This document shows, in pieces, positions 1,488-30,331 of a stretch of DNA of 30,405 nucleotides. Both the position numbers and the translations under genes were made by a program. The notes under the pieces were generated by a model, which searched no databases, was not told the DNA's origin, and saw only the letters and a list, made by a program, of their open reading frames with translations. Source of the stretch: Chloroflexota bacterium. Lineage in GTDB: Bacteria; Chloroflexota; UBA6077; CF-72. The DNA lies in contig JAFAPL010000568.1 in assembly GCA_019247135.1 (NCBI GenBank), positions 1 to 30,405 of the forward strand, in the 5' to 3' direction. Within the stretch, counting starts at the first letter, position 1. Each line of letters begins with the position of its first letter.

Positions 1488-1921
1488 ACGAGCACTTTAC
1501 TGCCTGCAGGGTGGGTTGTGCGCAAAGGACAAAGTGGGCTACTGGGCGAGCATTAATCTGAGCCAGAATTCCAATCCTCGCTATCGAAACCACACCTGCT
1601 CTTTCCCGAGTGTGCGAATCGATGTTGTAGAACTCCGCTCCTGGGCGACACCGATAAACACCACGCGCTCACTGGCCGCACACCGCGAGCGATACTCGTG
1701 CAGCGACGTCGTCCTTGCGCTGGCGTCGCTCAAACTGGACGATCGGCACCAGTTGCCGCCTGGCGAATGTCACGAACCGATGCGATTGCCGAGATGGTTC
1801 CAGCAGCGCGCACAATTGGCCGCTCCCGAACTTGACCATGAGCATTGGTTACAATGGTGCGCGAGAAGCGTGTCGACGGGTGGGGCTCTGGCGCTGTCCG
1901 GGGGCACAACGGAGGCGAGTG
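1488..1921. other. Intergenic region between the two divergent DUF4157 genes
   Basis: This 434-nt gap separates the minus-strand DUF4157 gene from the plus-strand DUF4157-transpeptidase gene. Open frames cross it, but none resembles a protein and they continue as antisense of the flanking genes. It must hold promoters for both genes, yet I see no convincing -35/-10 pair, long inverted repeat or direct repeat. The only clear signal is the ribosome binding site at its right end. Confidence 0.6.
1911..1919 (+). promoter_or_regulatory. Ribosome binding site fixing the start of the DUF4157-transpeptidase gene
   Basis: GGAGGCGAG lies just upstream of the ATG at 1922, with 6 nt between GGAGG and the start. 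It supports this ATG over the upstream in-frame candidate at 1715, whose extra 69 residues look like noncoding translation. Confidence 0.75.
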
Positions 1922-12243: not shown

Positions 12244-14765
12244 CCCTTGCCCCCGATTGCGCTGAGGCGCAACACACCCAGCTCAGGGTGGTCGGGATCG
12301 CTTGCCAGGCGTGCAATATCGAAAGTCCCAAGGCTGATGAGGCCAGCCTCGAGTTCGCCCGCGCCCGGCTGACCAACAGGGTGGAAGCGTGTTGCCAGGA
12401 CGCTCAGCACTCCGCTCACGGCAGCGACCTGCGCGTAGATCATGCTCAGGTAGACGGCCGTCCCGAACGTAAACGCACCAGGCTGAACAAACATGGAGGT
12501 CAGCACACCGGTGACGTCGTCGAGCACCTCGTTGCGGAAGTAGCCTGGCGCGATCGTGACTTGCAGCCCGAGGTCGAGACCGACGTAGCGGGGTGAGCGA
12601 ACGTCGATGTCCTGACCCACGAGGCGCAGCCGCTCCAGCGCGACCGAAACTCTTGGCAGCAGCCGCTGTGTGAGATCGTCGGTCGCGCCCTGAATGCCAA
12701 CGGATACCGTGCTCCAACTGCCACTCCAGCGGATGCTGGCGGCCGCGGCGGCAACCCCGGAAACGGCCAGGGCCGCGGCGCGGTAGTCGGCCTCGGTCAC
12801 CGCTCGGCGCTGCAAGCTCGCCGTTTGAGGCCCCCTGACTCGCACCTCATCGATGGTTTCTGGCTCGGCGCCGTCAATCGCGGCCAGGGGGTTGGTGATC
12901 CGCAGATTTTGGAGCCAGGGCTCAGTCGGATTGGGCTCCGCAACCACGATGTGGGCGAGGGCGTTGGCGCCAATCTGGCCGGCCAACCCGTTGCCGACTC
13001 GGTAGGTCGCAAATAGTGCGACAGGACCGAGCGGCGGCGCTTCACGGCCCTCCACGCCATCACCAAATCGCAAGTGGCCGGTGCCTGCCTCGTCCACTTC
13101 GACCACGAATACCTGATCGAAGGTGCCGCTCTCCAGGAGATCGGGGACAGGCGTCCAGAGGTCGTCTCCCAAGCGGAGGGCGACCGCAGGCACGGCGTCC
13201 CGCACGTCGCATGTCAAATCGCGGCGCTCCGCTTCAGCGAGCACCCCGGCGCCATCAGTCGCAAGGCGGTAGCGGGGCTGACCGATTGGCGGGCACTGTG
13301 TGGTGATCGGTCCAAAGCGCAGTGAATTGTTCGTCAGTCGCTCCGTCGTGCTCAGGCCGTGGTCGGCGGCAACGAGGTTGCCGCGGGCAAGCACAGGTGG
13401 TGAATACACTGATGCGCCCGGTTCGGGGCAGCCGTTGATCGCGTCGGCGGGTGCTGAAAGGAGGAATGGCGACCGCACGGCGTCCTCGATGCGCCAGTTC
13501 ACCAGCAGGAGCGGTAATGCGCCCGAGGTGCGCGCGTCGGGGCACGTGCGCAACTGAAGTTGACCGCACACGAGCAGGTCTGAGAACACCTCGTCGGACA
13601 GAGGTACCGGCTCAGCCTGAATCTGGACCACCTGGCGGTGGCCGGGATCGGGAGGGCCGCCGTCCGGTGCGAGTGCCTCTTCGAGCAGGAGCCAGTCACC
13701 GGCCGAAAGATAAGGGCGGACCGCTCGGTAGTCAGGGCCGATTGCGTAGAGGAAGGCGGCTGTTGCCCCGGCCTGGAGTTGGCTACCAGGAATGCCCCAG
13801 TCATGCACACGGATCTCGTTATTGAGCGGATCGACCGCCTGAGTGTGAGCCGTCTCGTAGACCACCGCCGAGGCGAGAGCAGGATCGGTCTGAAGCGTCT
13901 GGACGTTGATGCGTCGGCCCAGTGGGTCAGCGATCACCACGGACGGCGCGTTCGGCGCGCCCGGGTCGTTCGCGAGGGGGGTCTGAATACGGGTGATCAG
14001 GCGTGTGCCCAGAGGCACCACCCCGGCTGCTTGCACGGTGAATTGGGCCCACGTCCACGCGTTGCGACCGTCGTGCATGTGGTAATCCAGCAGCCGCGCC
14101 AGGCGGCGTGCTGAAATGCGTAACCTGACACGGTCCAGATAAGCCTCGTTCATGAGCGCGTCCTGGAGGTAAGACAGGCGGTCCCCAGCGTAGGCCAGCA
14201 GCTCGACCAGGGCGATGCCAAGGTCGGCTGGACTCCGCTCGAGCCAGCCCGGATTCAGCCGGGCAACCAGGTCCAGGAGAACGCCGCGAAAGCTCTCATA
14301 GTCCTTCGCCTCATAATCGAGCACGGGTTCGAGTGGCGCCGGGCTCGCCACCGGCAACGTTCGACAGTCAGCCAGTATGGGGCCGCCGCCAAATGAGAAG
14401 TCTGCGCGACGCAGGCACGGGTCGAGCTCGGCGACATCGATCTGGAGCGTGTACGGCGAAGCATCACCAGCACGGTCCAGCGTCACCCGCAGGTGTGCTT
14501 CCTCGGGCTGCTCTCGACCGTGCCGCGCCTGTGTCACGTGTATCGCACGCAGGCCGGTCACTCGCCGGCCGCCCTGGATCGTGATCCGCTCCGGATGCTC
14601 GCGCAGGCCATATGCGTGGGACGGAACCGGTTTCAAGAAGTGCACGCGCAGCGTGTCAGCGCGATCGCGGTCTACTTCGACATAGTCGATCCCGTTCAGG
14701 CGCGAACCGTCAACCAGCTGGCGACGCACGGGCCCCGCAAAGCGCCGCGCCTGAACGTCGATCAC
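12240..14765 (-). CDS. Putative baseplate assembly protein, gpJ-like wedge protein 1 (Afp11-like)
   Basis: An 841-aa gpJ/T4 gp6-like wedge protein. Near residues 175-230 it has the recognisable LAYAGDRLSYLQDALMNEAY and LRISARRLARLLDYHMHDGR segments. The C-terminal part (about 640-820) holds the baseplate J core with RRAVTEADYRAAALAVSGV and LGLQVTIAPGYFRNEVLDDV. It should pair with the second wedge protein encoded immediately downstream. The GTG start at 14765 overlaps the gp25 stop (GTGA), and its own stop overlaps the next ATG. Codon use and GC content match its neighbours. No truncation is visible. Confidence 0.9.
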   Translation of the reverse strand: MIDVQARRFAGPVRRQLVDGSRLNGIDYVEVDRDRADTLRVHFLKPVPSHAYGLREHPERITIQGGRRVTGLRAIHVTQARHGREQPEEAHLRVTLDRAGDASPYTLQIDVAELDPCLRRADFSFGGGPILADCRTLPVASPAPLEPVLDYEAKDYESFRGVLLDLVARLNPGWLERSPADLGIALVELLAYAGDRLSYLQDALMNEAYLDRVRLRISARRLARLLDYHMHDGRNAWTWAQFTVQAAGVVPLGTRLITRIQTPLANDPGAPNAPSVVIADPLGRRINVQTLQTDPALASAVVYETAHTQAVDPLNNEIRVHDWGIPGSQLQAGATAAFLYAIGPDYRAVRPYLSAGDWLLLEEALAPDGGPPDPGHRQVVQIQAEPVPLSDEVFSDLLVCGQLQLRTCPDARTSGALPLLLVNWRIEDAVRSPFLLSAPADAINGCPEPGASVYSPPVLARGNLVAADHGLSTTERLTNNSLRFGPITTQCPPIGQPRYRLATDGAGVLAEAERRDLTCDVRDAVPAVALRLGDDLWTPVPDLLESGTFDQVFVVEVDEAGTGHLRFGDGVEGREAPPLGPVALFATYRVGNGLAGQIGANALAHIVVAEPNPTEPWLQNLRITNPLAAIDGAEPETIDEVRVRGPQTASLQRRAVTEADYRAAALAVSGVAAAAASIRWSGSWSTVSVGIQGATDDLTQRLLPRVSVALERLRLVGQDIDVRSPRYVGLDLGLQVTIAPGYFRNEVLDDVTGVLTSMFVQPGAFTFGTAVYLSMIYAQVAAVSGVLSVLATRFHPVGQPGAGELEAGLISLGTFDIARLASDPDHPELGVLRLSAIGGKG

Positions 14766-15142
14766 GGCGGTCCGCCCGGGGTCGCGACCGTCACTTGCAT
14801 AACCGCTTGCTGGCCAGTGACCCGCCTGGTGTAGACGACCGTCACGACAAGCTCGTCGTCCTGCGCCTCCGCCTGTACATCCTGGACTGCGATCTCGTCC
14901 TGGAGGAAGTTCTGGAGCGAGGCGCGAATCACCGTTCGTGTCGCGGCGGCGAGCGCGGTGGAGTTGGGCATGAAAACGAGCCGGCGGACCCCGCAGCCGA
15001 AGTCCGGCCGGTTCACACGCTCACCGGGGTCGGTAAAGAGAAGCTGGACGAGCAGGTCGCGCAAATGGCTGGCCGGGTCAGTCACGGCGGTTCGGCCAGT
15101 AGAGTCGATGGCAAGCGGGTACGCCAGGAAGGGGCCACTCAC
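14762..15142 (-). CDS. GPW/gp25-family baseplate wedge protein (Afp9-like)
   Basis: This 126-aa protein matches the T4 gp25/P2 gpW family in length and sequence. It has the conserved core LRDLLVQLLFTDPGERVNRP followed by DFGCGVRRLVF, which carries the hallmark GER.(N/M)RPDFG motif used to initiate sheath polymerisation at the baseplate. A C-terminal beta strand region (DELVVTVVYTR) completes the fold. The start is GTG, overlapping the preceding stop as GTGA, and its stop overlaps the first wedge gene in the same way. Confidence 0.95.
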   Translation of the reverse strand: MSGPFLAYPLAIDSTGRTAVTDPASHLRDLLVQLLFTDPGERVNRPDFGCGVRRLVFMPNSTALAAATRTVIRASLQNFLQDEIAVQDVQAEAQDDELVVTVVYTRRVTGQQAVMQVTVATPGGPP

Positions 15143-15441
15143 AGGAGTGGATCCGCAAGATCGAGCGTGATCGTCTCACCGGGGATTGGCGGCGAAAGCG
15201 TAAGCGCCGAGGCGTTGTTCGCCAGGAAGCAGCCAAGCCCCTGGGCGATCGCAACAAAGAGCATCCGTCGGTCGCGTACCTCACTTGTGTTGGAGTCCAG
15301 CTGGAGACCAGGCAGCCCTTCCGCCTGGAGCAATGTGTTGAAGGCCAGCTCGATGTTCGCCGCCAGGCTGTTCTGGAAAGCGGCGGGGATAGCATTCGGC
15401 GGATCGGCGGGGCTGCCCATCTGACCAAGCTTGAGCGACAT
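15139..15441 (-). CDS. Small conserved-position protein between spike and gp25, unknown function
   Basis: A 100-aa protein without a motif I recognise. It has a helical central part (AFQNSLAANIELAFNTLLQA) and a beta-prone C-terminus (LTLSPPIPGETITLDLADPL). ATG at 15441 lies 12 nt after the spike stop, and its stop is coupled to gp25 by GTGA. In Afp/PVC clusters the equivalent interval between spike (Afp8) and wedge genes includes gp25 (Afp9) and the PAAR-type tip (Afp10). This protein lacks PAAR repeats and metal ligands, so it is not an obvious tip. A role in baseplate assembly is inferred from context only. Confidence 0.75.
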   Translation of the reverse strand: MSLKLGQMGSPADPPNAIPAAFQNSLAANIELAFNTLLQAEGLPGLQLDSNTSEVRDRRMLFVAIAQGLGCFLANNASALTLSPPIPGETITLDLADPLL

Positions 15442-15453
15442 GAGTGTCGAACC

Positions 15454-16173
15454 TCACTCGTCCAGATTCTTGAGCGAAAGCAAGCTCGGGTCAGGCGGGA
15501 TCAGCGGCGGCACCGGCACCATGGGTGTGACCGGAAGAATGCCGATCGCCAGCTCGCCTGGGTGGATGTGGGTGTTGAAGAGCGCGACCAGCTCCGTCAG
15601 ATACGCGAGCAGCTCATCGCCAAAAACTGCCGGGTGCGCCGCATCCTCCCCGTGCTTGATGATCGGCGCCTCCAGGACGACCTGCAGCGTGCTCTGTATG
15701 TGCACCTGCCCTTCCAGGACCTTGATCGTGACGTGGTTCGAACTGTCCGAGTCCGACAGAGTGATGGTCTGGGCATCGTCGTTGAGGGCCACGAGCAGAC
15801 CAGCCTCGGTCCGCAGGACCTTCATCGGGGGAGTCGCCCGTGAACCCTGGTCATCGCTGGGTAGCTCGCCGCTGCCCCACCAACAGCCGCTCCAGATCGG
15901 CCGCGAGACATCACCTGCCTCGAACTCGATCCAGACGCCGGCACCAACGTCGGGCACGGTATAGAAGCCCGAGCCGCTGCCGCTGTAGGGCGCGCATGGC
16001 AGTGCCCAGCCGGTTTCTGTCTCGCCAAGTACCTCGGGCACATTCGCCTTGAGCCGCCCCAGGTTCGCGGGGTCGGAGTTGTCAGTGACCAGTCCTCGAT
16101 ATTTCCCGTAGAAGCGGTCGGCCAGCCGCTCGAGGGTGTGTTCGATAGTCTGCTCGATTGTCTCAGGCGGCAC
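15454..16173 (-). CDS. Baseplate assembly protein V / gp5-like spike protein
   Basis: This 239-aa protein contains a gp5/VgrG-type OB-fold at about residues 22-110: [20 protein letters not shown] at the start, then [20 protein letters not shown] and [20 protein letters not shown]. These are standard landmarks of phage gpV and spike proteins. A beta-strand segment follows ([20 protein letters not shown]), likely the start of a trimeric beta-prism. No lysozyme domain is present. The C-terminus is Pro-rich. In Afp8 the gp27-like hub and gp5-like spike are fused; here they are separate genes. The GTG start at 16173 overlaps the hub gene by 11 nt and is preceded by AGGAGG 9 nt upstream. Confidence 0.92.
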
Positions 16174-17302
16174 TGGCAGGGTCCTCCTGATAACCCTCGC
16201 GTTGCGTGGTATCGACCGTGTTTCGGCGGGCCTGGAAGCGCTGGAGATAACCCTGCCCGCCCAGCGAGTGGGTTACGCGTGTGACGTAGTAGGAACCGCT
16301 CAGCAGGGCGCCCGCACCCCGGATGTTGAGCGGCAGGCCAGGGCGCAGGCTGCCCGCGTCGGGGCCGACGGTGCCCTCGGCGATAATCGCCCAGCTCGCG
16401 CGGTCGACCACTCCCTGCGCCATCGCGTGCAGGTCGTTGGTGTGCATGAGGCCAGTCTGGGCGGGGCGCACCAGGGGTGGGTTGGTCAAACGGCCGAGAA
16501 CACCCGCGCGCCCCTGCGTCTGACGGCTGACGTCGGAGACCGTGACCGGCTGTGTCGTCTTGGAGGAGACGTCAAGGGCCGAAGCCGCCACCGTGGTTGG
16601 CCTGAGCATGTCGTAGCGCACCTCGAACTCGCTCACGTTGTTGGTTTGCCCGCCGCCAATAGTCAACACCGCCTGGTGCGGATCACCCGGTCGCGGCGGA
16701 CCGAAGTAGACCGTGTCCGAACCGCTGTCAGGGTCCGGATGAACGTAGCATTCGAAGCCATTGCGTTGCGCCAGGCGCCGGACAAAGCGCATGTCGGTAC
16801 TCCGCTGGGTGGGCGTTCCTTCGGGATCGCGCAGGGAGCCAGGTGTGGCCGACACCTGGGCCTGCAGCGGGTAGTCAGCGAAGATCTGTTGGGCGATGTC
16901 GCTATCCGACAGGTTCGGCCAGGGTCTGATCTTCTCTTCGAGATTCATCAGCAGTGTGGCGTCGAGGCCGATGACCTCGAGTGTGGAGCGACCGGGCTCG
17001 TCGGCGAATTGCGCCATCTGGCCAGTCAGATAGCTGTTTATCAGCGTTACGGGTTTGCTGCCCAAGACCACCCGCACCGTCAGGGAGGTCAGCGGCTTGA
17101 ACGGGTCGTCTTTCAGCATGTCCCAATCAGTGCCATCGCGCGTCTCGGCAAGTCCGAGGCGAATACGCACGATCGACGCGAGGTCGATGGATTGTTCGAT
17201 CTCGATGTCTTGCACAGCAGCCATCAGATCGGGGCCAGCGGGTGCCTGGCCGAGCACGACGGCGTAGACGGGGCCAGACGTGAGACCGTTCGCAGTGACC
17301 AC
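16163..17302 (-). CDS. gpD/gp27-like baseplate hub protein
   Basis: A 379-aa protein of the phage late control D/gp27 type. Visible landmarks are [20 protein letters not shown] near the start, [15 protein letters not shown], an IDATLLM-like strand, [18 protein letters not shown] and [20 protein letters not shown], the most typical hub segment. It ends with the [20 protein letters not shown] and [19 protein letters not shown] strands. The protein forms the trimeric hub on which the gpV spike, encoded next, is mounted. I chose the GTG at 17302, one base after the LysM gene stop, because the open frame upstream of it reads as noncoding antisense-like sequence. GGAG lies 10 nt upstream. Confidence 0.9.
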
Positions 17303-17303
17303 G

Positions 17304-17585
17304 TTACTGCTGCTCCGGGATGTCCAGGTGTCGACCCGCAACGGCCAGCAAGTCGTCCGGCCACAGGCCGCGGTTCGCGTCACAAATTCGCCAGAACTGC
17401 AGCGGATCGCCATACACCGTGTTGGACACCAGGTCGAAGCGGTCCCCGTCAGCCACGACATACGTGGCTTGAATCGGAATATCAAAAGGGATGCGGCGCA
17501 AGCGTCGGTAGTGAATCTGACGCCCGCCAGGGCCGGTGAACACGGCATCAGGCACGTGCGCGTATCGACTCTCGGCGCTGAACAT
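17304..17585 (-). CDS. LysM-domain baseplate protein (C-terminal half of an Afp7-like function)
   Basis: This 93-aa protein is mostly one LysM-like module: YVVADGDRFDLVSNTVYGDP, then LQFWRICDANRGLWPDDL and VAGRHLDIP. The pattern (strand, helix, W-x-I-x-x-A/D-N, strand) is the form found in phage gpX/gp53 and in the C-terminus of Afp7-type tube proteins. There it is structural in the baseplate and does not necessarily bind peptidoglycan. ATG at 17585 overlaps the preceding stop by one base. The adjoining upstream gene supplies the CIS tube domain, so two genes cover what is usually one Afp7 protein. A longer frame upstream is noncoding. Confidence 0.9.
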   Translation of the reverse strand: MFSAESRYAHVPDAVFTGPGGRQIHYRRLRRIPFDIPIQATYVVADGDRFDLVSNTVYGDPLQFWRICDANRGLWPDDLLAVAGRHLDIPEQQ

Positions 17586-18331
17586 CAGTTCTGCCCGCCC
17601 GGAGGTTGCGCCGTTGTCGCGATCCGCTGCGCGGCCAGAGCTGCGTCGCTGTTGGAGTCGTAGACCGCCAATCTCTCCTTCTGGGTGACCTGATCGACCA
17701 CCAACTGCTTCCAGGGACTGCCCGCGTCCCTCAGCTCGCGAACGGTCAGCGAGCGCAGGCTCAGCTCGACGTTGGCTCGAATCGGGTTCAGCGTGGGGTC
17801 GAACGCCTCTTCGGTAATGGAGAGCGACGTAAGTCTGACCGGCAGCACCCGATTCTGTCCCCACACCAGGATGACCATCGGGATGGCGCCCGGAGCGACC
17901 GCCGCCTTGCCGCCGCGCTCCAGCTCGAGCTCGTTCCTGAGCGCCTCGGAACTAGGGTAGACCAGCAGCTCGAGCGCGTTGAGTGACGGATGCAACCCAT
18001 ACTTGATGGCGGAGTCCACTGACCACTCCAGCTGGTCGGCGAGGTCCAGCTCAATGGAGAGCGTCAAGCTCTCGAGGGGTAACGTAGTGTGCTCCGTGTC
18101 GCCGGCGTTTCGCTGCCAGTCGTAGTCCGTCCCCTGCTGCTGAATTGTCCGGGTGACCGTCTCGGGGTTGTACTGAAACACGATCATGCCAGTTGGATTC
18201 GCAGCTTTCGTCCGGTCGGCGTAGATGACCAGCGCTCCCCTCGACACGCGTGGCGCCCCGCGCCAACTCGACGGCCGCGTCCGAGTTCCGCCAACTGACG
18301 CGCCGCTGATGGAACCGGAGATGTCGATCAT
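17585..18331 (-). CDS. CIS tube protein, N-terminal-domain type (Afp7-like)
   Basis: A 248-aa protein matching the contractile injection system tube-protein domain that joins inner tube to baseplate hub. The signature is ANPTGMIVFQYNPETVTRTI at about residues 45-65, followed by LTLSIELDLAD, LNALELLVYPSSEAL, MVILVWGQNRVLPVRLTSLS and ITEEAFDPTLNPIRANVELS. It lacks the LysM tail of typical family members; that module is encoded by the next gene. ATG at 18331 is preceded by GAGGAGG and overlaps the preceding stop (ATGA). The frame continues another 132 codons upstream, but that part is antisense-like and Arg-rich. Confidence 0.93.
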   Translation of the reverse strand: MIDISGSISGASVGGTRTRPSSWRGAPRVSRGALVIYADRTKAANPTGMIVFQYNPETVTRTIQQQGTDYDWQRNAGDTEHTTLPLESLTLSIELDLADQLEWSVDSAIKYGLHPSLNALELLVYPSSEALRNELELERGGKAAVAPGAIPMVILVWGQNRVLPVRLTSLSITEEAFDPTLNPIRANVELSLRSLTVRELRDAGSPWKQLVVDQVTQKERLAVYDSNSDAALAAQRIATTAQPPGGQN

Positions 18332-18609
18332 CCTCCGCCTCCTCGTGCCAGACCGTGGTAGATGCGGCGGGCAATGGCCGAGCCTACGCGACGCGTGGAG
18401 GTCGCGATTGGGCCATCGAGTCGGCCCCCATCGAGCTGGCTCACCTGATGGGTGCGCAACAGCGAGGCAGGCAGCTCCTGGCCGGCGAATAGCCGCGTGA
18501 GCTCGTCCTCGATCGCGGCGGCGAGCAGGTCGGCACGCAAGGGGCCCGACATCTCGAGCCTCAGCTCGCTGATGCTGACCAGGATCGACCGCGCCCCCGA
18601 GGTGCTCAC
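18328..18609 (-). CDS. Small protein coupled to the phosphatase-like and CIS tube genes, unknown
   Basis: This 93-aa protein overlaps both neighbours, with GTGA at its start (18609) and ATGA at its end, which strongly supports it as real. It has an amphipathic beginning (ARSILVSISELRLEMSG), a helical middle (LLAAAIEDELTRLFAGQELP) and a basic Gly-rich C-terminus (ARRIYHGLARGGGG). No known domain is recognised. Position suggests an assembly factor for the baseplate or a partner of the phosphatase-like protein; neither can be shown from sequence. Confidence 0.8.
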   Translation of the reverse strand: MSTSGARSILVSISELRLEMSGPLRADLLAAAIEDELTRLFAGQELPASLLRTHQVSQLDGGRLDGPIATSTRRVGSAIARRIYHGLARGGGG

Positions 18610-19079
18610 GGCACCTGCCCGGCCAAGAGCTGCGCCTCGAGCTTACGAAGCTGGTCGACGAAGCCAGGGTTGGGGTTCGCCTGCGGGCGGTGGTGTCGCA
18701 GGAACGCCAAGGCGGCGGCGAAGTCAAGGTGCTCGACCAGCATGATCGTCGCCAGATTGCGGTAGCTCGACCGGCTCACGCCTGCCGCGCAATGGGCCAC
18801 CAGGCCACAGCCGCTGCGCATGACAAACGCATCCGCGTACGCACCCGCAATGACGAGCTGGTCCGGCAAGGTAGCGTCGGACGAATCCTCGATGGCAACG
18901 ACTGTCAGGCCTAGGACAGGATGACCGTCGATGTAAGAATCATCCACTTCGCCGTGGTTCATACACACGAGCCACAGCGGCGGCCCCTGAATCGCCCGGA
19001 GACCGGCGGGGTCCGCTACCCCGCCTTGATAAAGTGATCCCCAGCCGGGGCGCAGTGGGCCGATTTTGGAATAGTCCAC
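18606..19079 (-). CDS. Dual-specificity protein phosphatase-like protein embedded in the eCIS cluster
   Basis: A 157-aa protein with a complete cysteine-phosphatase signature, AHCAAGVSRSS: His96, nucleophile Cys97 and phosphate-binding Arg103 (CX5R). Asp65, 32 residues before the cysteine in VVAIEDSSDA, is at the position of the general acid in VHR-like dual-specificity phosphatases. The downstream helices (YRNLATIMLVEHLDFAAALA, then LRHHRPQANPNPGFVDQL) match DSP family consensus closely. It would hydrolyse phosphotyrosine/phosphoserine or another phosphate ester. No signal peptide or membrane segment is visible. The GTG start at 19079 is 3 nt after the AAA+ stop and the stop overlaps the next gene. 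Whether it regulates assembly or is itself a cargo is unknown. A phosphatase is not among the core Afp/PVC components I know. Confidence 0.9.
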   Translation of the reverse strand: MDYSKIGPLRPGWGSLYQGGVADPAGLRAIQGPPLWLVCMNHGEVDDSYIDGHPVLGLTVVAIEDSSDATLPDQLVIAGAYADAFVMRSGCGLVAHCAAGVSRSSYRNLATIMLVEHLDFAAALAFLRHHRPQANPNPGFVDQLRKLEAQLLAGQVP

Positions 19080-19082
19080 AGA

Positions 19083-21038
19083 TCAGGCCTCAGCAAGCTC
19101 GAGTTCGGGTAGCGGCTTCTCCAGTTTGGCGAACTCCGCTCTGGCCGCCGCCAAAAGGTGGGCCATGTGAATCGGTTCACCCGCATCGGCGGCGATAAAA
19201 GCGCCGCCCAGCGCGATGTTCGCGATGCTGCCCCCCGCCACGTTCAGGTGCGCCAACCGCTCGACGTCCAGCCCCGCCGTCGGGGCCGTCGCAGGGAAGA
19301 CGCGGCGCCAGATTTCGGCGCGCTGCGCAGCATCGGGAAAAGGGAAATGCACGGAGAACCGCAGTCGGCGCATGAAAGCCGGATCGAGTGCGGCCTTCGC
19401 GTTGGTGGTCAGAATGGCCAGGCCCCGGTACACCTCCATTCGCTGGAGCAGGTAGCTGACCTCGATGTTTGCGTAGCGGTCGTGACTGTCCCTGACTTCG
19501 GTGCGCTTTCCGAAGAGTGCGTCGGCCTCGTCGAACAGCAGTACGGCCCCGGCCTCGTCGGCCGCATCAAAGATGCGCCGCAGGTTCTTTTCGGTTTCGC
19601 CAATGTATTTGCTGACGACCTGACTGAGATCGATGCGATACAGATCCAGGTTCAGCGCGCCGGCCAGGAGTTCGGCGGCCATCGTCTTGCCGGTGCCGCT
19701 CGGCCCAGCAAAGAGGGCGGTGATCCCGAGTCCGCCGTTGGGGCGTGCTCCGAAACCCCACGTCTCGTACACGGTCAGACGCTGGCGGACCTGGACACAG
19801 ATCTGGCGCAGGGTGGCGAGCTGAGCCTCGGGGAGGACCAGGTCGTTCCAACCGGCTCTCGGTTGGAGCCGCTGGGCGAGGTCCTCGAGCCTCGCCCGCG
19901 TGAGCAACTGGCAGGCCGACCAGAGTTCGCCGTCAAGTGCGCCTCCAGTCTTTCTCCGGGCTGCCAGGGCCTCTGCCGCAGCGGCCTGGATGCGCGGCGC
20001 GCTGAGGTCGAAATGCGTGACAAGCTTCTGCACGAATACGGATCCGGACAAGTCGCCAACCGCAGCCCTCCACAGGTCAGCCTGCTCACCACGCGAAGGG
20101 CGCGCGACCTCGAGCGTCACGGACCAGCGGCGCAGGTTGCGACGACGCTGGGGTGTTGAAACGAGCACCGGCCCGCCCACCGAGTCCAGGAATCGATCGG
20201 CAACCCACTCCCGCCCTGATTCACCGGCGTCCGGCTCCCCGCAATCCAGCAGGAGCGCGCAGCCGCTGAGCGCCGACTCCCTCTGCCACAGTCGAATCAA
20301 TCCCTGAAGCTCGGTCGGGTCAGTCGGCACGAGGCGGGATGGCAGAACTGCCAACTCGATTTGCAGCGCAGCGCAGGCGGCGGCTGCTACTTCGCGGCGG
20401 GCCTCGGGGTCGTCGCCCCAGAGCTGCACAATTGGGATCGCCGAGGCCCGCTGGCCACCGGACCAGAGGGCAGCCACCCGCTGCGCGAGCTGCTGCTGCG
20501 ATGGCGGCAACGTAACTGACGGAACAATCAGGTCCAGCAGCGCACTGAGCCGATCGTCGAGGTGCCGCACTCCGGCGAGGTAATGAAGGACCCATTCATC
20601 GATCCGCAGCGGGCTGGCGACCAGCGAAGACCCGGCGCCAATCTCAATCATGCGCCAGCGGCGGAGCGGAGAATCCGGCGCAAGCGCGCTCCAGTGCGGC
20701 TGAGGGAGCGCCCCCAGCGCCAGGCTGAAAGTAGGCTGCACGCGGGCCGGGTCGCCCTGGGCCCGGGCGCACAGCGTCGCGAAGCTCGAGTCTAGCTCCA
20801 CTCCAGCGCACAGCAGCAGGAGCGCCTGTTCAAACGGGCTGAGCTCGAACCTGGCACAGAGGGTGTCGACGGCCGGCGGCGCGAGCATCGGGGCGCGTAA
20901 CTCCGCGAGGCGTTCTCTACCGCTCGCCGGGAACGTGGCGGAGTTGCCCTCGAGCACCTGGCGCAGATCGGCCAGCGCAGCGACAAGGTAACACTGGTTC
21001 TGCTCTTGCCAGCTCGGGGGCGGACTCACGGCCATCAT
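19083..21038 (-). CDS. AAA+ ATPase of the eCIS (Afp15-like)
   Basis: A 651-aa protein with a C-terminal AAA+ module. Walker A is GPSGTGKT at residues 445-452 (Lys451) and Walker B is VLLFDEADALFGKR with Asp503/Glu504. Sensor 1 is AILTTNAKAALDPAFMRR, with Arg residues that could act as fingers. The long N-terminal region (1-400) is family-specific, with a second degenerate nucleotide-binding-like fold. This ATPase is conserved in eCIS and is thought to act in assembly or cargo loading rather than sheath recycling. I chose the ATG at 21038, which overlaps the preceding stop (ATGA); a second ATG follows directly at 21035. Confidence 0.95.
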   Translation of the reverse strand: MMAVSPPPSWQEQNQCYLVAALADLRQVLEGNSATFPASGRERLAELRAPMLAPPAVDTLCARFELSPFEQALLLLCAGVELDSSFATLCARAQGDPARVQPTFSLALGALPQPHWSALAPDSPLRRWRMIEIGAGSSLVASPLRIDEWVLHYLAGVRHLDDRLSALLDLIVPSVTLPPSQQQLAQRVAALWSGGQRASAIPIVQLWGDDPEARREVAAAACAALQIELAVLPSRLVPTDPTELQGLIRLWQRESALSGCALLLDCGEPDAGESGREWVADRFLDSVGGPVLVSTPQRRRNLRRWSVTLEVARPSRGEQADLWRAAVGDLSGSVFVQKLVTHFDLSAPRIQAAAAEALAARRKTGGALDGELWSACQLLTRARLEDLAQRLQPRAGWNDLVLPEAQLATLRQICVQVRQRLTVYETWGFGARPNGGLGITALFAGPSGTGKTMAAELLAGALNLDLYRIDLSQVVSKYIGETEKNLRRIFDAADEAGAVLLFDEADALFGKRTEVRDSHDRYANIEVSYLLQRMEVYRGLAILTTNAKAALDPAFMRRLRFSVHFPFPDAAQRAEIWRRVFPATAPTAGLDVERLAHLNVAGGSIANIALGGAFIAADAGEPIHMAHLLAAARAEFAKLEKPLPELELAEA

Positions 21039-22306
21039 GCGAACGTGACCTTCGGGCCGGCCCACAGGCCAAACGTGGGACTGTTCGGGGCCGCGTCACG
21101 AGTGAGCGGACTGTCGACACCGGCGACGGTTACTCGTACGTAGTAGTCTCCGGTGGGCACGCCCTGGATCGGGACCGATCGGGGATTGTCACCCGCCGCG
21201 ATCGCGACCGGCGGCAGGGTCGTCCCGTCGGCAAGCGAAATCAGGGTGACCGTCGCTGACTGATCTTCTGTAATCGGTGGATCGACACTGAGATGGAGGG
21301 TGGCTGAACGAGGCGACGTGCCTGTTCCCTGCACGTCCGAAAGTAGCGGCGGCTCGAGGAGCTGTGGCTGGAGCACAAAGCCAGCCAGGTTCGACTCAAA
21401 AGCAGGGTGCAGCGGCGGCTGACTGGGCGGCGGCTGAGTGGTTCGGCCCATCGGGATCAGGTGCTGGACCTGCAATGTGTGAGCGCCAACACGGACCGTC
21501 GGTAACACGGCAAGCTCCAACCGCGTGTCGGTCGCCGTCTGGGCGTCGAAGGGCGTGGGAGTGCCATCGACCAGCACCTGGCTGACCCGAGGCGGCGGCG
21601 CTAACAATTGCCGGCCCGTGACGACCAGTTGGACACCGGGGACGATCGGCAATCCTGGCCCGCTCGAGGGTTCGATACCGGTAATGGTCGGCGCGGCGAC
21701 TGTGAGCACATGGATGTTCCGCTCCAGCACTGGAAGGATGCTGATGGGCGTGTCGTCTGACTCGATGAATACCGGTCCGCCGGCGTAGGCCGCCGAGAGC
21801 TCATACTGCGTGAGATAGAAAACAGACCAGAGTTTGGACATTTCCTCGAGCGACAGCTGCATTGGGGTGAACCTCACGAGTTCACGCTCGCCCGCGAGGT
21901 TCGACTCGCGTAGAAAGGCGTGAGTTGCAACTGCCGCGTCGATCAGGTCGGGGCTCAAGCATGGGTGTGTATGCAGCGTCCGCACGACCAGGGCGAGGAG
22001 CTGCTGGTCGTCGAGAGTGGCGTCCTCGCCGTAGCAGCTGATCAGATAGTGGAGCTCCAGCGCCGCGCGCGGCCGATGCACGAGCCGCCCCTCCGACGTG
22101 CGAGTAGGCAGATCATCCCCTCGCCAGTGTGGATTGTGAGCAGCCTGGTACAGGAAAACATTAACGCGTGGTGTGCGATCGCCCTGCGTTGCCGCATCCG
22201 GTTTGCCCGTGCTGACGGTGACCCCACCGAGGACTGGCGTGATCGCGGCATCAAGTAGGAAGCGCAGCGTCTCGGTGACGGTGGCGATGGTCAGGTGGTT
22301 GCTCAC
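21035..22306 (-). CDS. Pvc16/Afp16-like tail terminator (DUF4255) with Ig-like C-terminal domains
   Basis: This 423-aa protein has an N-terminal Pvc16/DUF4255 domain (about residues 5-190): TVTETLRFLLDAAITPVLGG, RTPRVNVFLYQAAHNPHWRG, ELHYLISCYGED and MQLSLEEMSKLWSVFYLTQY. Afp16-type proteins cap the tail tube and set or end its length. After residue 205 it carries an IPT/Ig-like fold (APTITGIEPSSGPG through VGAHTLQVQH) and a second beta-sandwich near residues 330-420, giving a protein much longer than the minimal terminator. The GTG at 22306 has GAGG 8 nt upstream, and its stop overlaps the AAA+ start. Confidence 0.9.
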   Translation of the reverse strand: MSNHLTIATVTETLRFLLDAAITPVLGGVTVSTGKPDAATQGDRTPRVNVFLYQAAHNPHWRGDDLPTRTSEGRLVHRPRAALELHYLISCYGEDATLDDQQLLALVVRTLHTHPCLSPDLIDAAVATHAFLRESNLAGERELVRFTPMQLSLEEMSKLWSVFYLTQYELSAAYAGGPVFIESDDTPISILPVLERNIHVLTVAAPTITGIEPSSGPGLPIVPGVQLVVTGRQLLAPPPRVSQVLVDGTPTPFDAQTATDTRLELAVLPTVRVGAHTLQVQHLIPMGRTTQPPPSQPPLHPAFESNLAGFVLQPQLLEPPLLSDVQGTGTSPRSATLHLSVDPPITEDQSATVTLISLADGTTLPPVAIAAGDNPRSVPIQGVPTGDYYVRVTVAGVDSPLTRDAAPNSPTFGLWAGPKVTFA

Positions 22307-22316
22307 GCCGCCGTCC

Positions 22317-23519
22317 TCACAGGTATGCTCGATCGAGGTGGCGGCGGGCCAGCGTGTAGTCGCCAAAGCCGCCCGATTTCCGCGCCGGCAGGCCGGCCGC
22401 TGGTGTCGACAAGCGCTCTGGCGCGCGTATCTCGACCCGGCCAATGCGAATCTCAACCTTGGGTGGTGGGTCTTCCTGGGGCGCGGAGCTCAGCGAATGC
22501 CTGAGAGGCTGATCGGCATCAGCCGCCGGTGCCGCGCTGGCCTGAGAAGGGGTCACATCGAACGGGGGATATGGCCGAGTCTCGTCAGCCTGCACTCCGA
22601 CCGGGCGCCGCAGCTGCTTCTCGTCACCACGCACTCCGACCAGCGGCTGCACCCGCCCCTCGTCAGTGCGCACTCCGACCGGGGGCTGCAGGAATGCCGG
22701 CGTGGCGGCATTGGCTGCAACGGGGGCCACAGCCGAGCCGGCCATCGTTGTGGGGGCGATCGAGCTCTCGGCCGCAGGGTTGGCGATACCGGGCTCCGCC
22801 CGCGCATTCCCCGCTGGTGCGGAATCCGTTTGGGCCGCCGCGAGCGGCTCCTGTGGCCAGCTGGGCGGGGTCGGCGTTGGCACGTCCGTCGAAGCAGTCG
22901 AGGCAGCACCGGGCGGCAACAAGCGTGGCGTTCGCGTCCGCCTCGCGGGCGTCGGCGAGGGCGGGGTTGTCAGCATCTCGGTGGCCGACCAGGAGGTGGT
23001 TTCTTGGGCAGCCGGAGGCGCACCGCGTATTCCCGAGTCGGCGGGGCGCGCCGCAGCCGTGCTTGCGGGTCGGGTAGCAGCCCTGGCGCCCGGCGCCTCC
23101 TTCGGCGTTGCGTCCGGGCGCGTGCGCGCCATCGTTGCACCACGGGCAGCGGCGGGTGCGCGGCTCGTGGCCAAACTGGGGTGCCTTACAGCCCGGTTCC
23201 TACTCGGAGCAGGACTGCCGGGCAGACTCCGCTGTTTGGCCGAGTCAGGCTGAGGCGTGTCAGATGTCACCGGCGGCTCCACTGCGGGCGTCGCAGTTGT
23301 CTGGTTGGAGTCGCTATCCGGCAGCTTCAGACTCGCTCGGGACTGCTCGAGCGGCCCCGCCCATTGAGGCGCCTGGTCGAGGCCCAGCGGCTCGGCCGGA
23401 CCTGTGTCAGGTGTGGTCTGCGACTCACCCAACACAGGTAATGTCTGCTGGAGCGCCGGCGCAGCCGCTACGGTCAGGCCTGCCCCGCGGAGCACCAGAC
23501 GCCTGAAGAGCCCGTTCAC
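22317..23519 (-). CDS. Long disordered Pro/Ala/Thr-rich eCIS protein with 13-residue tandem repeats
   Basis: A 400-aa protein of low complexity: Pro, Ala, Thr, Ser and Arg dominate from about residue 30 to 340, with no predicted fold. Near the C-terminus three 13-residue units (centre VGVRxDE) stand in tandem, followed by VEIRIGRVEIRAPER, a short strand motif I associate with the C-termini of other tail-locus proteins, and GFGDYTLARRHLDR. The start (MNGLFRRLVLRGAGLTVAAA) is helical but too weak for a signal peptide call. It is coupled to the T4-baseplate gene by GTGA. Its position between tail genes suggests a flexible linker or measuring role. Composition alone cannot decide, and no tape-measure coiled coil is visible. 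Confidence 0.8.
   Translation of the reverse strand: MNGLFRRLVLRGAGLTVAAAPALQQTLPVLGESQTTPDTGPAEPLGLDQAPQWAGPLEQSRASLKLPDSDSNQTTATPAVEPPVTSDTPQPDSAKQRSLPGSPAPSRNRAVRHPSLATSRAPAAARGATMARTRPDATPKEAPGARAATRPASTAAARPADSGIRGAPPAAQETTSWSATEMLTTPPSPTPARRTRTPRLLPPGAASTASTDVPTPTPPSWPQEPLAAAQTDSAPAGNARAEPGIANPAAESSIAPTTMAGSAVAPVAANAATPAFLQPPVGVRTDEGRVQPLVGVRGDEKQLRRPVGVQADETRPYPPFDVTPSQASAAPAADADQPLRHSLSSAPQEDPPPKVEIRIGRVEIRAPERLSTPAAGLPARKSGGFGDYTLARRHLDRAYL
22569..22685 (-). repeat. Three 39-bp in-frame tandem repeats
   Basis: Three consecutive 39-bp units (22647-22685, 22608-22646 and 22569-22607 in reading order) encode 13-aa repeats with the shared core GTCGGAGTG...GACGAG (VGV..DE). A partial fourth unit (PPFDV) follows. 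They are coding repeats inside the disordered protein. Confidence 0.9.
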
Positions 23520-24379
23520 CTGTCTCGAGGCCGCCAGTCGTCTAGCAGCTCCAGGTACAGCCTGCGCCGCGTTCTGCTCATGTGGAGGATGTCAGCTTCG
23601 GACCAGTGGTAGTGCAGCGCCAGCATATGGACCTCCTCGAACAGCTGACCGCGGCGGCCGCCCCCCAGCTGGCGAAACAGGTAGCTCGCAGGATCGAACT
23701 GAATCTGGAACCTGGCACGGCATTCGGGACAGCTAGCGCTGAGCAGTGTTTCCGCATATGGGTCCGATGCCGTGATCTCGTCCTCCATGGCATCCACTAG
23801 AGCCTGCGGTGCCTGGTCCGGCTCGATCTCGCGACCGTCGCACCAGAGCCCAAGCAGGCAGCGTCGCAGCAGCAACTCAGCGGCCGCATCCGGATCGCGT
23901 GCGGCGAGCTCGGTGGTGCAATCGAGATCGGCGACTGTCGGGAGCCGGAAATGGGAGCGCCACTCGTGCCCACCGCTCTCGACCCGCGCTTCAAGCGGTC
24001 GCCGCGGTGGAGGGACCTGTCGATCGAGCAGCGCGGCGACCGTGATCTCGAAATCCATCCTCGAGCCGCAAGCGGGCGCGGGACAGTTCGCGACGCACGA
24101 CAGTCGGTCGCCAAACATCAGCCGCTGCAGCTCCAGCAACAAGACCTCCCGATCGCCGATGACGAGCCTGCGGATGGCTTGTTCGTCTTGTGCGCTGCCC
24201 TCCGCGGTCTGGACACACCGCGCGAGGAGCGCGGTCGCCTGACGGCTGGTGCTGAGCGTATGGCCCTGCTCGAGCAGGAACTCTTCTTCCGTGCCCGAGA
24301 TCGGACGCACCTGGATGGTCTGTCGCACACGCCCTCCGCGCACGCGCTCGTGCGGCAGTACGACGTTGATCCCGCTCAT
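23516..24379 (-). CDS. T4-type baseplate protein / tail chaperone-like protein with Cys clusters
   Basis: This 287-aa protein resembles the T4 baseplate-like family found directly after tube genes in contractile tail loci. Recognisable parts are RQTIQVRPISGTEEEFLLEQ near the start, LVIGDREVLLLELQRLMFGD, LPTVADLD and the C-terminal VHMLALHYHWSEADILHMSR followed by RRRLYLELL. Two cysteine groups, CVANCPAPAC (about residue 96) and CPEC (about 217), could form one zinc site. ATG at 24379 is 4 nt after the tube stop; the open frame runs 39 codons further upstream into the tube gene but that part is Ser/Arg-rich noise. The WSEADIL ending is typical of phage tail assembly proteins that link tail and baseplate formation. 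Confidence 0.85.
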   Translation of the reverse strand: MSGINVVLPHERVRGGRVRQTIQVRPISGTEEEFLLEQGHTLSTSRQATALLARCVQTAEGSAQDEQAIRRLVIGDREVLLLELQRLMFGDRLSCVANCPAPACGSRMDFEITVAALLDRQVPPPRRPLEARVESGGHEWRSHFRLPTVADLDCTTELAARDPDAAAELLLRRCLLGLWCDGREIEPDQAPQALVDAMEDEITASDPYAETLLSASCPECRARFQIQFDPASYLFRQLGGGRRGQLFEEVHMLALHYHWSEADILHMSRTRRRLYLELLDDWRPRDR

Positions 24380-24383
24380 CGGC

Positions 24384-24911
24384 CTAAGCGTGCAGTCCGC
24401 TTGGTTCCTTGGGCTCGGGGACCGTATCGTCACGTTCCCACGCCTCGAGCTCGAGCTTGATGTGCTGTATCGCGACCGCGTTGGCATTTGCGTCAAAATC
24501 CGGAAGAGCCTGGTATTCGGAGACCCAGCAGCGGAACAGCTTGTAAGAGATGACCTTCTGACCGGATTCGTTGAAGATGTCGACGATTACGTCCTTGCGG
24601 AAATCAGCCAGAGACGACTGTTGCCCCTCGCCAGAGGCGTAATCCCATACTTTGAGCGCCCACTTCTCGAACTCCAGGTCATGGGTGACGCCACGCTCCA
24701 GGGTGACAGCGTCGAAGTTGCTGCGACCAGGTGACTTGCGGCTGGAGCTGTTGTCGGCGCCAGTGCGATGGGTGACGACCTCGGTCGTGCGCTTCAGCGC
24801 GCTCATCTTGCTGATTCCGGCAACGTACCGGTTGTTCCACATCACTTTGAATCTGAAATTCTTGTACGGGTCAAAACGCGTGGTATTGACCGTGAACTCC
24901 GGCGGGGGCAT
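24384..24911 (-). CDS. Inner tube protein (T4 gp19/Afp1-like)
   Basis: A 175-aa tail tube protein with the family landmarks YKNFRFKVMWNNRYVAGISK, TEVVTHRTGADNSSSRKSPG, DAVTLERGVTHDLEFEKWA and the C-terminal IKLELEAWERD strand. It polymerises into the hexameric rings inside the sheath through which cargo is delivered. Only one clear tube gene is present, whereas Afp has two (Afp1 and Afp5). ATG at 24911 is preceded by AGGAGG 9 nt upstream. It follows the sheath gene by 28 nt, the usual sheath-tube order. Confidence 0.95.
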   Translation of the reverse strand: MPPPEFTVNTTRFDPYKNFRFKVMWNNRYVAGISKMSALKRTTEVVTHRTGADNSSSRKSPGRSNFDAVTLERGVTHDLEFEKWALKVWDYASGEGQQSSLADFRKDVIVDIFNESGQKVISYKLFRCWVSEYQALPDFDANANAVAIQHIKLELEAWERDDTVPEPKEPSGLHA

Positions 24912-24939
24912 GTGCGCTTTCCTCCTGCCTTGACCTCAC

Positions 24940-26595
24940 CTAGGTTGGGATCGCACCGGCGATCTGCTGGATCTGGATGATCACGAACTCAGCCGGCTTG
25001 AGCGGCGCAAAGCCGACGACGATGTTCACGATGCCAAGGTCGCGGTCCGCCTGGGTTGTCGTTTCCGCGTCACACTTGACGAAGTACGCGTCCCTTGGGG
25101 TCTGTCCCTGGAAAGCGCCCTGCACGAACAGGTGGTGCATGAAGGCACCCACGTTTAGCCGAATCGACGCCCACAGCGGCTCATCGTTTGGCTCGAAGAC
25201 CACCCACTTGGTGGACTCGAAAAGCGACTCTTCCAGGAACAGCGCCAGTCGACGAATGGGAACGTACTTCCATTCGCTCGCCAGCTGGTCGGCGCCGAGC
25301 AGTGTCCGTGCTCCCCAGCACACCTCACCGATGATCGGCAGCGCCCGCAACGCGTTGATCCCCTCGGGGTTGAGCTCGCCGATGTCCCCGTCAGCCAGCT
25401 TAACCGGCAGACGCGCGCCAACCAGCACGGCTTCCACGCCGGCGGGTGCTTTCCAGACGCCTCGGTTCGTGTCGGTGCGTGCATAGATGCCGGCGATGGT
25501 CCCGCTCGGGCCGACTGTTCGATCCCGGAGTTGGGCCTGCACGTCGGAGATGACCAGGTTGGGGTAATAGACCGCCCCGTTGGAGTTGATGCGCAGGCCA
25601 CCATCGAGCCACTCTGAAATGCTGTGTGGCGGCGTAATGTGGAGGCCGTCGGGCGGGTCTATAACCAGAAATGCCCGTTTAGCCTGGCAGTACGTCAGGG
25701 CAGCCACGTAGATGTCGGTCGCAGCTTGATCGCCGAGCTTCGCAGCCGCTGGGATGCACAGGATGTTGAAGATGTCCGGCGCGATCCGGTCGAGTGGGAG
25801 GGGGCTCGTGGGTGTGGTCGGGACGAAGACGTCCAGCAGTGCCTGGACGCCTGCTTCCTGCCACTGGCTACCGGGCACAGGTACGCCGTCGCCGTTGGGT
25901 GGGACGGCGCCGTCGCTCCCAGGGTTGCCGCCGAGCGGTACCCAGCCCCTCGGGTTGGGCAGTGGTCCGCTGCTGCCCGTGGGTGCGTCCGGCGGGTTGA
26001 GCGGGTCAGCAATCACGATGAGGGTGGATTGATCGTTGACGACCTTGACTGCGTAACGTGGGTCGTGCGGGTCCATGCTCAGGTTCCGCAGCGTCTCGAT
26101 GGTCAGTGGCGGATCGTTCGGTTTGGCGCCGGGCGCTTTGAGCCGGGCGAGCAGGTTGAACCTGGCTGGATCACCCGTGATCGCCTGCACCAGTACTTCA
26201 AGATTGTTCCCCCAACTGCCTGGGCTTGAAGCGCTCACGGTGAGCGATGGGGCGGCGGTCGGACCACTGTCGGACCCCGAGCCCGCCGGACCCGACGAGA
26301 TGTCGGCGTGAGCCGCGGCTGCGCCTGGCGCGACGCGGACGACCCACGCCACTTGACCACCATTGAGGTAGTACTGTTGGATCGCGTAGCTCGCCTCGCT
26401 GTGAGCGTCCAGTCCGCCAAACTGCCGGACGAAGTCGCTCCAGCTGGTGAGGCGCGTGGCAACGCCGACCGGACCCTGTGCAAAGTAGTCCACAAATGCC
26501 GTGTTCGAGGTGCTGACCCCGACAATGGTGTGGACTCCGCTTGGGATCTCCTCGATATACACGCCGGGATATGTCAGGGTGGGTGGCACAGCCAT
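24940..26595 (-). CDS. Contractile tail sheath protein (gp18/Afp2-like)
   Basis: The 551-aa sheath protein starts LTYPGVYIEEIPSGVHTI and VGVSTSNTAFVDYFAQG, the classical sheath N-terminus used for the linker to neighbouring subunits. It ends with IVNIVVGFAPLKPAEFVII and IQQIAGA, the conserved C-terminal linker strand. The middle has Gly/Pro/Ser-rich insertions (about residues 95-120 and 205-245) that may form surface loops. A single sheath gene replaces the three of Afp/PVC. The glycosyltransferase stop codon TAG overlaps the GGAGG ribosome binding site (26601-26597), which is only 1 nt from the ATG at 26595. A GTG two codons downstream (26589) has better spacing (7 nt) and could be the true start. 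The open frame reaches a further 95 codons upstream, inside the glycosyltransferase gene, and is rejected. Confidence 0.96.
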   Translation of the reverse strand: MAVPPTLTYPGVYIEEIPSGVHTIVGVSTSNTAFVDYFAQGPVGVATRLTSWSDFVRQFGGLDAHSEASYAIQQYYLNGGQVAWVVRVAPGAAAAHADISSGPAGSGSDSGPTAAPSLTVSASSPGSWGNNLEVLVQAITGDPARFNLLARLKAPGAKPNDPPLTIETLRNLSMDPHDPRYAVKVVNDQSTLIVIADPLNPPDAPTGSSGPLPNPRGWVPLGGNPGSDGAVPPNGDGVPVPGSQWQEAGVQALLDVFVPTTPTSPLPLDRIAPDIFNILCIPAAAKLGDQAATDIYVAALTYCQAKRAFLVIDPPDGLHITPPHSISEWLDGGLRINSNGAVYYPNLVISDVQAQLRDRTVGPSGTIAGIYARTDTNRGVWKAPAGVEAVLVGARLPVKLADGDIGELNPEGINALRALPIIGEVCWGARTLLGADQLASEWKYVPIRRLALFLEESLFESTKWVVFEPNDEPLWASIRLNVGAFMHHLFVQGAFQGQTPRDAYFVKCDAETTTQADRDLGIVNIVVGFAPLKPAEFVIIQIQQIAGAIPT

Positions 26596-26600
26596 TCCTC

Positions 26601-29409: not shown

Positions 29410-29613
29410 ATGACGACGTCTGAGCGGACGGGCGTGCTGGTGATCCGTGTCTGGATAGAACCTGACAACCGCAATCAGCTGCGGGCACGCATCACCCGGA
29501 GCCTGGACATCACTACGACCGATCAGGTTCTCACCGCGGCCGCCAGCATCGAGAGTATCTGCGACACGGTGCGCGATTGGCTGGAAGTCTTCGTTGCCCC
29601 AGCCCAGCTGTAG
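29410..29613 (+). CDS. Small conserved-looking protein of unknown function
   Basis: A 67-aa protein with a strand-rich start (RTGVLVIRVWIEPDNRNQLR), then ARITRSLDI, and a helical end (SIESICDTVRDWLEVFV). Such an alternation of strands and one terminal helix looks like a genuine compact fold rather than a random frame, and the amino acid choice fits coding sequence. I cannot name a family. ATG at 29410 is preferred over GTG at 29401; neither has a strong ribosome binding site. It lies divergent from the glycosyltransferase gene, next to the repeat array, and 13 nt before the methyltransferase start, so the two are probably co-transcribed. Confidence 0.65.
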   Translation: MTTSERTGVLVIRVWIEPDNRNQLRARITRSLDITTTDQVLTAAASIESICDTVRDWLEVFVAPAQL

Positions 29614-29626
29614 CCAGGGTGGGACC

Positions 29627-30331
29627 GTGGAGCTGGGAAGCAGTCATCCAACTGGGGGCGTGCCGCAAGTCAGTCCTGACTATCCGGCCGACTTCCACCG
29701 CTCCCTGGCTGGCGGCGCCCGCCGCTCAGCGGAAGTCATCGTCCCGCTCGTTCAGCGGCTCGTCGCCGCCGAAAGCGTTGTTGATGTTGGTTGCGGCGTG
29801 GGGAGCTGGCTGTCAGTGTTCCGTGAGTGCGGCGCGAGGAGGATTCTTGGGATCGACGCTGGCCTGGATGCCGACGAGCTCGTTATCCCTGTCGATCAAT
29901 TCTTGAACCGAGATGTTTCGGAACCGCTGAGGCTCAGCGAAACATTCGACCTGGCTATCTCGCTGGAGGTGGCGGAGCACCTACCGGCCACCAATGCTGA
30001 CACCCTGGTCAGCTCGCTGGTGCAGCTTGCGCCCGCCGTGCTCTTCTCGGCGGCCATCCCGTTTCAGGGCGGATACAACCACCTCAACGAGCAGTGGCCC
30101 GAGTACTGGGTCGAGCGGTTCCAGCGGCACGGCCTCGCAGTCATCGATGCGATTCGAAAAGAGATCTGGCTGGACGAACGTGTCGAGTGGTGGTACGCCC
30201 AGAACACTCTGCTGTTTGCGACGCGTGAGGCTCTCGAGCATCACCCGTCGTTGCGGTTCGAGCTTGACCGGACTGAGCCGCGTCGTCTCGCCCTGGTACA
30301 TCCGCGCAACTACGCCCGTTGCTGGTCTTGA
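29627..30331 (+). CDS. Class I SAM-dependent methyltransferase
   Basis: A 234-aa methyltransferase with motif I VVDVGCGVGSW (residues 51-61), the acidic residue that binds the SAM ribose in ILGIDAGLD (Asp77), and FDLAISLEVAEHLP (107-120), the usual motif preceding the active-site loop. The C-terminal half has FSAAIPFQGGYNHLNEQWPE and YWVERFQRHG, a pattern seen in methyltransferases from glycan and polysaccharide gene sets. The substrate cannot be told. GTG at 29627 follows AGGGTGG at a 5-nt distance; an upstream TTG at 29594 would overlap the preceding gene. It probably forms a two-gene unit with the 67-aa protein and may modify the glycan made by the divergent glycosyltransferase. Confidence 0.88.
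   Translation: MELGSSHPTGGVPQVSPDYPADFHRSLAGGARRSAEVIVPLVQRLVAAESVVDVGCGVGSWLSVFRECGARRILGIDAGLDADELVIPVDQFLNRDVSEPLRLSETFDLAISLEVAEHLPATNADTLVSSLVQLAPAVLFSAAIPFQGGYNHLNEQWPEYWVERFQRHGLAVIDAIRKEIWLDERVEWWYAQNTLLFATREALEHHPSLRFELDRTEPRRLALVHPRNYARCWS

Follow-up and report, generated by a model that had tools for sequence, protein, structure and literature searches.

The window, by which we mean the whole stretch of 30,405 nucleotides analysed here, carries on its minus strand a long run of genes that is, judged by its content, an eCIS operon, with sheath, tube, baseplate, spike, Pvc16, AAA+ and eCIS_core genes standing together. In order, these are first the genes for the sheath (24940-26880 as listed, with the true start probably downstream; Pfam Phage_sheath_1C, 38.2 bits), the tube (24384-24911, placed by position and by matches in related loci), a T4-type baseplate protein, a proline-rich open reading frame (ORF), a Pvc16-type protein (21035-22456 as listed; Pvc16_N, 136.5 bits), an eCIS AAA+ ATPase of the Pvc15 type with a winged-helix domain (19083-21065; AAA 92.2 bits, WHD 64.9 bits) and a dual-specificity phosphatase (DSP; 18606-19079). 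The DSP gene is followed by a small gene for 93 aa (18328-18609), whose family usually lies directly after AAA+ according to matches in related loci, and by a CIS tube protein gene (17585-18344; CIS_tube, 33.8 bits), whose start is not fixed, the listed ORF reaching 18727. Then come the spike and baseplate genes assigned by Pfam, namely GPD hub, OB spike domain, gp25 and two baseplate J (9574-17548), a 720-aa protein, a beta-helix/DUF6519 protein and, at the far end, an eCIS_core protein that also matches the putative metallopeptidase family DUF6782 (207-1487). A second eCIS_core ORF lies on the plus strand (1715-3151), and from their sequences both eCIS_core proteins look like cargo candidates. 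Sheath, Pvc16, AAA+, CIS_tube, GPD hub, OB spike domain, gp25, both baseplate-J and both eCIS_core proteins scored above the Pfam cut-offs; the T4-type baseplate protein fell below its own (22.0 vs 24.5 bits).

The 720-aa operon protein (7415-9577, minus strand) has no Pfam match. Its neighbour of 1219 aa (3740-7399, minus strand), with DUF6519 and a right-handed beta-helix, occupies a position at which one might expect a tail fibre or a receptor-binding protein. Two further genes lie next to the sheath end, one for a protein of 894 aa that carries glycosyltransferase domains of family 2 and group 1 (26601-29285, minus strand) and one for a methyltransferase (29594-30331, plus strand).

A first-pass annotation had placed a DSP-like ORF at 18606-19079, 3 nt from the AAA+ stop and overlapping the next small gene. 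We confirmed the ORF and both of its junctions, and found it on the minus strand, which had not been stated. The gene encodes 157 aa, starts with GTG at 19079 and stops with TGA at 18606-18608; 3 nt separate its start from the stop of the upstream AAA+ gene, and its stop overlaps the start of the 93-aa gene by 4 nt (GTGA). By eye, a GAGG motif was seen 8 nt upstream of the start codon. This start is sound because the seven closest database clusters (P0002-P0008, 67-99% identity) have their first residue at the same position as the DSP. The protein matched Pfam DSPc (PF00782) with 45.6 bits against a curated cut-off of 33.5, which was the only Pfam domain on it; no eCIS_core (DUF4157) domain was found there. 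GC3 was 0.76 for the DSP gene, 0.73-0.82 for most of its neighbours and 0.66 for the eCIS_core gene. The DSPc score, the starts shared with P0002-P0008 and the neighbour-like GC3 indicate that the ORF is not a chance one. The DSP had also been said to be expressed with the apparatus: its place inside the eCIS operon agrees with this, and co-translation with AAA+ is probable.

The claimed catalytic residues were all at their places: the HCX5R(S/T) signature reads HCAAGVSRS, with Cys97 and Arg103 in the loop HCAAGVSR, and Asp65 lies upstream within IED. Cys97, Arg103 and Asp65 are invariant in all 14 rows of an alignment of the window DSP with 13 database clusters. The His preceding the Cys is present in 12 of the 14 rows, including the window DSP; P0013, P0014 and the DSP copy of the phage locus L083 (9902-10435) have Gly at this position and keep Cys, Arg and Asp. 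Asp65 aligns with the Asp of 'vED' in DUSP4, which we take to be the general acid. The predicted structure of the DSP has the DUSP fold, and its closest folds were eukaryotic DUSPs, most of the solved DSPs in those lists being eukaryotic. Atypical DUSPs and MAP-kinase phosphatases (DUSP15, DUSP18, DUSP22, MKP-2) share this fold at 22-28% identity to the DSP, but the window DSP, unlike them, is encoded in a bacterial injection-machine operon, and to our knowledge MAP kinases are absent from bacteria. The N-terminus is folded in the model, with strands at residues 3-8, 15-19 and 35-39 and a pLDDT of 88 for residues 1-10 and of 77-94 per block of ten over residues 1-50. The catalytic residues are thus intact and the protein is, on sequence grounds, an intact-looking phosphatase that presumably acts on phospho-Ser, phospho-Thr or phospho-Tyr.

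We compared the insertion site with the best 80 of 584 relatives of the window AAA+, taking at most 10 kb on each side per locus; six of these loci (L063, L028, L039, L048, L054, L011) have fewer than 474 bases past AAA+. For the 93-aa family we made a profile out of the 80 loci and the window; in 53 of these loci it detected a member on the downstream side of AAA+, no more than 3 kb away and without a comparable insert. Measured from the AAA+ stop, the conserved domain of this family lay at most 313 nt away in all 53 and no further than 180 nt away in 52 of them. In the window, AAA+ and the 93-aa gene are 473 nt apart and the DSP gene fills the gap. From this comparison of gene order, the DSP gene is an insertion between AAA+ and the 93-aa gene. 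No member of the 93-aa family was detected in the other 27 loci, and in L011, L028, L039, L048 and L054 the contig stops within 400 bases.

The first-pass annotation had further proposed to look for DSP genes beside AAA+ in other eCIS loci. The DSP family profile gave no match in the 80 loci at E up to 10, and a tight DSP motif gave none in their ORFs of at least 60 aa. Looser patterns matched 15 ORFs (C..[GA].[ST]R[ST] type), 20 times (C..G.[ST]RS) and 6 times (HC..G..R; one being the gp25 ORF of L017 and one, in L079, antisense to baseplate genes), all of which we took as chance. Because none of the 80 relatives was seen with such a gene, eCIS does not in general need a DSP. The earlier reading is therefore upheld for an intact-looking DSP in an eCIS operon and is not supported for a general link of DSPs to eCIS. 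The arrangement of AAA+, DSP and 93-aa gene was seen here in one species.

A search of 5.8 billion proteins returned 26 matches to the DSP. One of them (P0002), named Chloroflexi bacterium, is the window DSP with one change, and the window AAA+ has a 100% partial match (P0031) of the same name. The nearest non-self relatives are six clusters with 67-75% identity (P0003-P0008), of which P0004 is named Limisphaerales, followed by six with 36-44% over the alignment (P0009-P0014); the remaining 13 matches (P0015-P0027) mostly span half of the query or less. In IMG/VR, 18 loci encode a DSP relative. The family profile scored 152-186 bits for L081-L084 and at most 57 bits for the other loci; L082-L084, with scores alike, are probably one sequence. 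The phage DSPs of L081 and L083 have 35-37% identity to the window DSP and match the profile over the whole length, and P0013 is close to the L083 protein. Both loci look like real phages because terminase and portal genes lie downstream of the DSP in L083, and head, tail-fibre-like, sigma-factor and neck genes lie around it in L081. No eCIS protein match was found beside either phage DSP, and the proteins that follow the DSP in the two loci are unrelated to each other by BLASTP. Phage-encoded DSPs gave weak matches to PHROG 10650 and PHROG 32716.

In a tree of 37 rows, the window DSP, P0002-P0014 and the L081 and L083 phage proteins formed one 16-row group with support 99/99, the tree being midpoint-rooted only and containing long branches that meet, that of the L081 protein included, as the tool warned. 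P0027, the phage loci L089-L098, the likely duplicates L082 and L084, and the short loci L099-L103 from the search of 12 genomes (see below) were left out. The DSP family is a small one, and among its members are phage proteins whose genes lie close to those for packaging, head or neck. The phage members resemble the window DSP in their tree group and whole-length profile match, but differ in their terminase, portal, head or neck context and, for the L083 copy, in the Gly that replaces the loop His.

Whole-genome searches with the DSP profile gave matches in 3 of 12 genomes at E up to 1e-3, in 5 of 346, 1 of 199 (a repeat of one of those five) and 0 of 366 genomes at a limit of 1e-10, and in 0 of 273, 0 of 400 and 0 of 384 genomes at a limit of 1e-12; the sets partly overlap, in many genomes scoring covered only some of the first-look candidates, and an empty result without a known positive shows nothing. 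The genome matches reached at most 51.8 bits, compared with 152 and 186 bits for two phage records serving as positive control, the 186-bit record being close to the query row P0013 and hence not independent. We read these genome matches as generic DSPs. Within up to 10 kb on each side of five of these matches, no protein matched the window eCIS proteins at E up to 1e-3. tblastn of the DSP found no match in 50,697 phage records or in 72,556 plasmid records. When 15000-25000 was compared with plasmids by megablast, the one match, at 74% over about 556 bases, fell within AAA+ and came from a Novosphingobium plasmid.

The explanation that we favour, tentatively and with somewhat less than even confidence, is that a DUSP-type phosphatase shared with phages was inserted after AAA+, is translated in step with it and acts in the producing cell. 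A complete enzyme of this small family would have entered between AAA+ and the 93-aa gene and would be translated together with both. Most likely within the producing cell, it would dephosphorylate a Ser, Thr or Tyr residue, either on a protein of the apparatus or the loader or on a host protein that keeps assembly in check, and might affect loading or firing; the opposing enzyme would be a host kinase encoded outside the window. This explanation is favoured by the intact fold and catalytic residues, by the packing of the DSP gene against AAA+, by the nearest phage members, which also lie near packaging, head or neck genes, and by the cargo-type eCIS_core proteins already in the window. Against it stand the lack of a kinase signature in the window, the 80 relatives, none of them seen with a DSP, and a mismatch between DSP and AAA+ identities (see below).

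According to excerpts of PMC11495950, the AAA+ homologue Pvc15 selects and loads payloads in PVC. In type VI secretion systems (T6SS), PpkA and PppA can govern assembly, with PppA opposing the kinase PpkA on Fha1, and the phosphatase is encoded with the contractile injection machine, as in the window (excerpts of PMC10433429). By analogy with these two cases, the DSP could act on the loader, on its 93-aa partner or on the tube. PppA is a PP2C-type enzyme. The window has a DSP instead, and no kinase partner was seen: no kinase signature was found in the window by Pfam on the scanned ORFs or by a simple Hanks pattern in six frames, nor was a PP2C motif by a simple pattern in six frames, so the pair of PP2C phosphatase and Hanks kinase that marks a PpkA/PppA-type switch was not found in this cluster. 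The suggestion of the first-pass annotation that the DSP controls assembly or firing as in T6SS thus holds in that a phosphatase accompanies a contractile machine, but the parallel is loose.

The core genes of the window, including the AAA+ loader, are like those of a PVC-type operon, from which the window differs by the extra phosphatase gene between AAA+ and the 93-aa gene. Known core sets had been said to lack a phosphatase. In agreement with this, 'phosphatase' is a term with 0 occurrences in the main texts of PMC8213781, PMC11297309 and PMC11495950. In the available parts of two further papers, phosphatase appears only as the PhoA reporter (PMC12237407) or only among inhibitors and reference titles (PMC7082817). 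Titles and abstract beginnings in our literature searches indicated no phosphatase in an eCIS operon, and these searches found no case of an extracellular injection machine that is controlled by a phosphatase. The case described here, seen in one species, is that of an eCIS operon carrying a phage-type DSP as an insertion behind its loader gene.

Alternatively, though we consider it unlikely, the DSP gene could be of mobile or phage origin, have landed in the operon and work for the cell without taking part in the particle; signalling by phosphorylation in the host and competition against phages are examples of such work. This alternative is in line with the family members in phages and with the 80 related eCIS loci, in which no DSP copy was found. 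In addition, the best non-self identity is 75% for the DSP and 61% for AAA+ (among the best 120 of 7048 AAA+ relatives). Under joint inheritance AAA+ would be expected to be at least as alike as the DSP; because the DSP relatives are the closer ones, the DSP does not seem to travel with the apparatus, which suggests that its gene moves on its own. On the other hand, the gene fits closely between the stop of AAA+ and the start that follows, which together with the neighbour-like GC3 suggests long residence under co-expression with the apparatus. A foreign origin of the gene by composition was unsupported, and composition gives no sign of a recent arrival. No repeats were found at the borders of the insertion, so nothing there bears the mark of a mobile element.

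Type III systems are known to inject phosphatases, and the DSP could likewise be a cargo that is loaded inside the tube, enters a target cell and upsets phosphorylation signalling there. Its small size, its position beside the loader ATPase gene and a fold nearest to eukaryotic DUSPs (though most solved DSPs listed are eukaryotic) are consistent with this reading. The features described for eCIS-loaded toxins (EATs), in excerpts of PMC11297309 and PMC11495950, are an N-terminus that is both hydrophilic and disordered, and the eCIS_core (DUF4157) domain. The disordered N-terminal signal of 50-70 residues expected of an EAT is absent from the modelled DSP, whose folded N-terminus speaks against such a signal, and the eCIS_core domain, frequent yet not required in EATs, is absent too. 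Hydropathy over the first 50 residues was -6.6 for the DSP and -28.6 and -37.8 for the two eCIS_core ORFs as listed, which points away from cargo, but the measure discriminates poorly, giving -32.8 for the tube protein, -18.1 for AAA+ and -32.8 to +17.5 across the measured window proteins that are not cargo candidates. eCIS toxin genes also tend toward the operon 3' end (excerpts of PMC8213781), from which the DSP gene lies away. The cargo option of the first-pass annotation is thus kept as an improbable one, since the usual signs of eCIS cargo are missing from the DSP. Finally, STYX is catalytically dead, and a STYX-like, non-catalytic phospho-binder is very improbable for the window DSP, which keeps the loop His and the invariant Cys97, Arg103 and Asp65, even though STYX (2r0b) was its best profile match among solved chains and Gly replaces that His in two alignment rows and the L083 copy.

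It is not well understood how eCIS particles become loaded, what holds them back and how they are released, and a phosphatase directly after the loader ATPase offers a single testable candidate for control of this step by phosphorylation. A bolder form of the explanation that we favour, in which the phage-type DSP would be a built-in eCIS phosphorylation switch with the AAA+ loader or assembly proteins as its targets, and would descend from phages that employ the same enzyme when virions are assembled, seems to us quite improbable. The DSP family also hints that regulatory or anti-host genes pass between phages and the domesticated relatives of phage tails. Because the arrangement is rare, the finding is of limited value.

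Six of the 80 AAA+ loci (L003, L012, L013, L015, L040, L041) had ORFs with Hanks-kinase motifs. The 93-aa protein (18328-18609) had no Pfam or NCBIfam match, and a search of the protein database with it returned one cluster, identical to the query (3 members, 2 contigs); its family may be an overlooked eCIS core component. Among ten large downstream genes, hand-picked from 79 loci, eight encode eCIS_core proteins, one is CIS_tube-like (below the cut-off) and one has no match. The window differs from these in that CIS_tube follows the 93-aa gene and the eCIS_core proteins lie at the far end.
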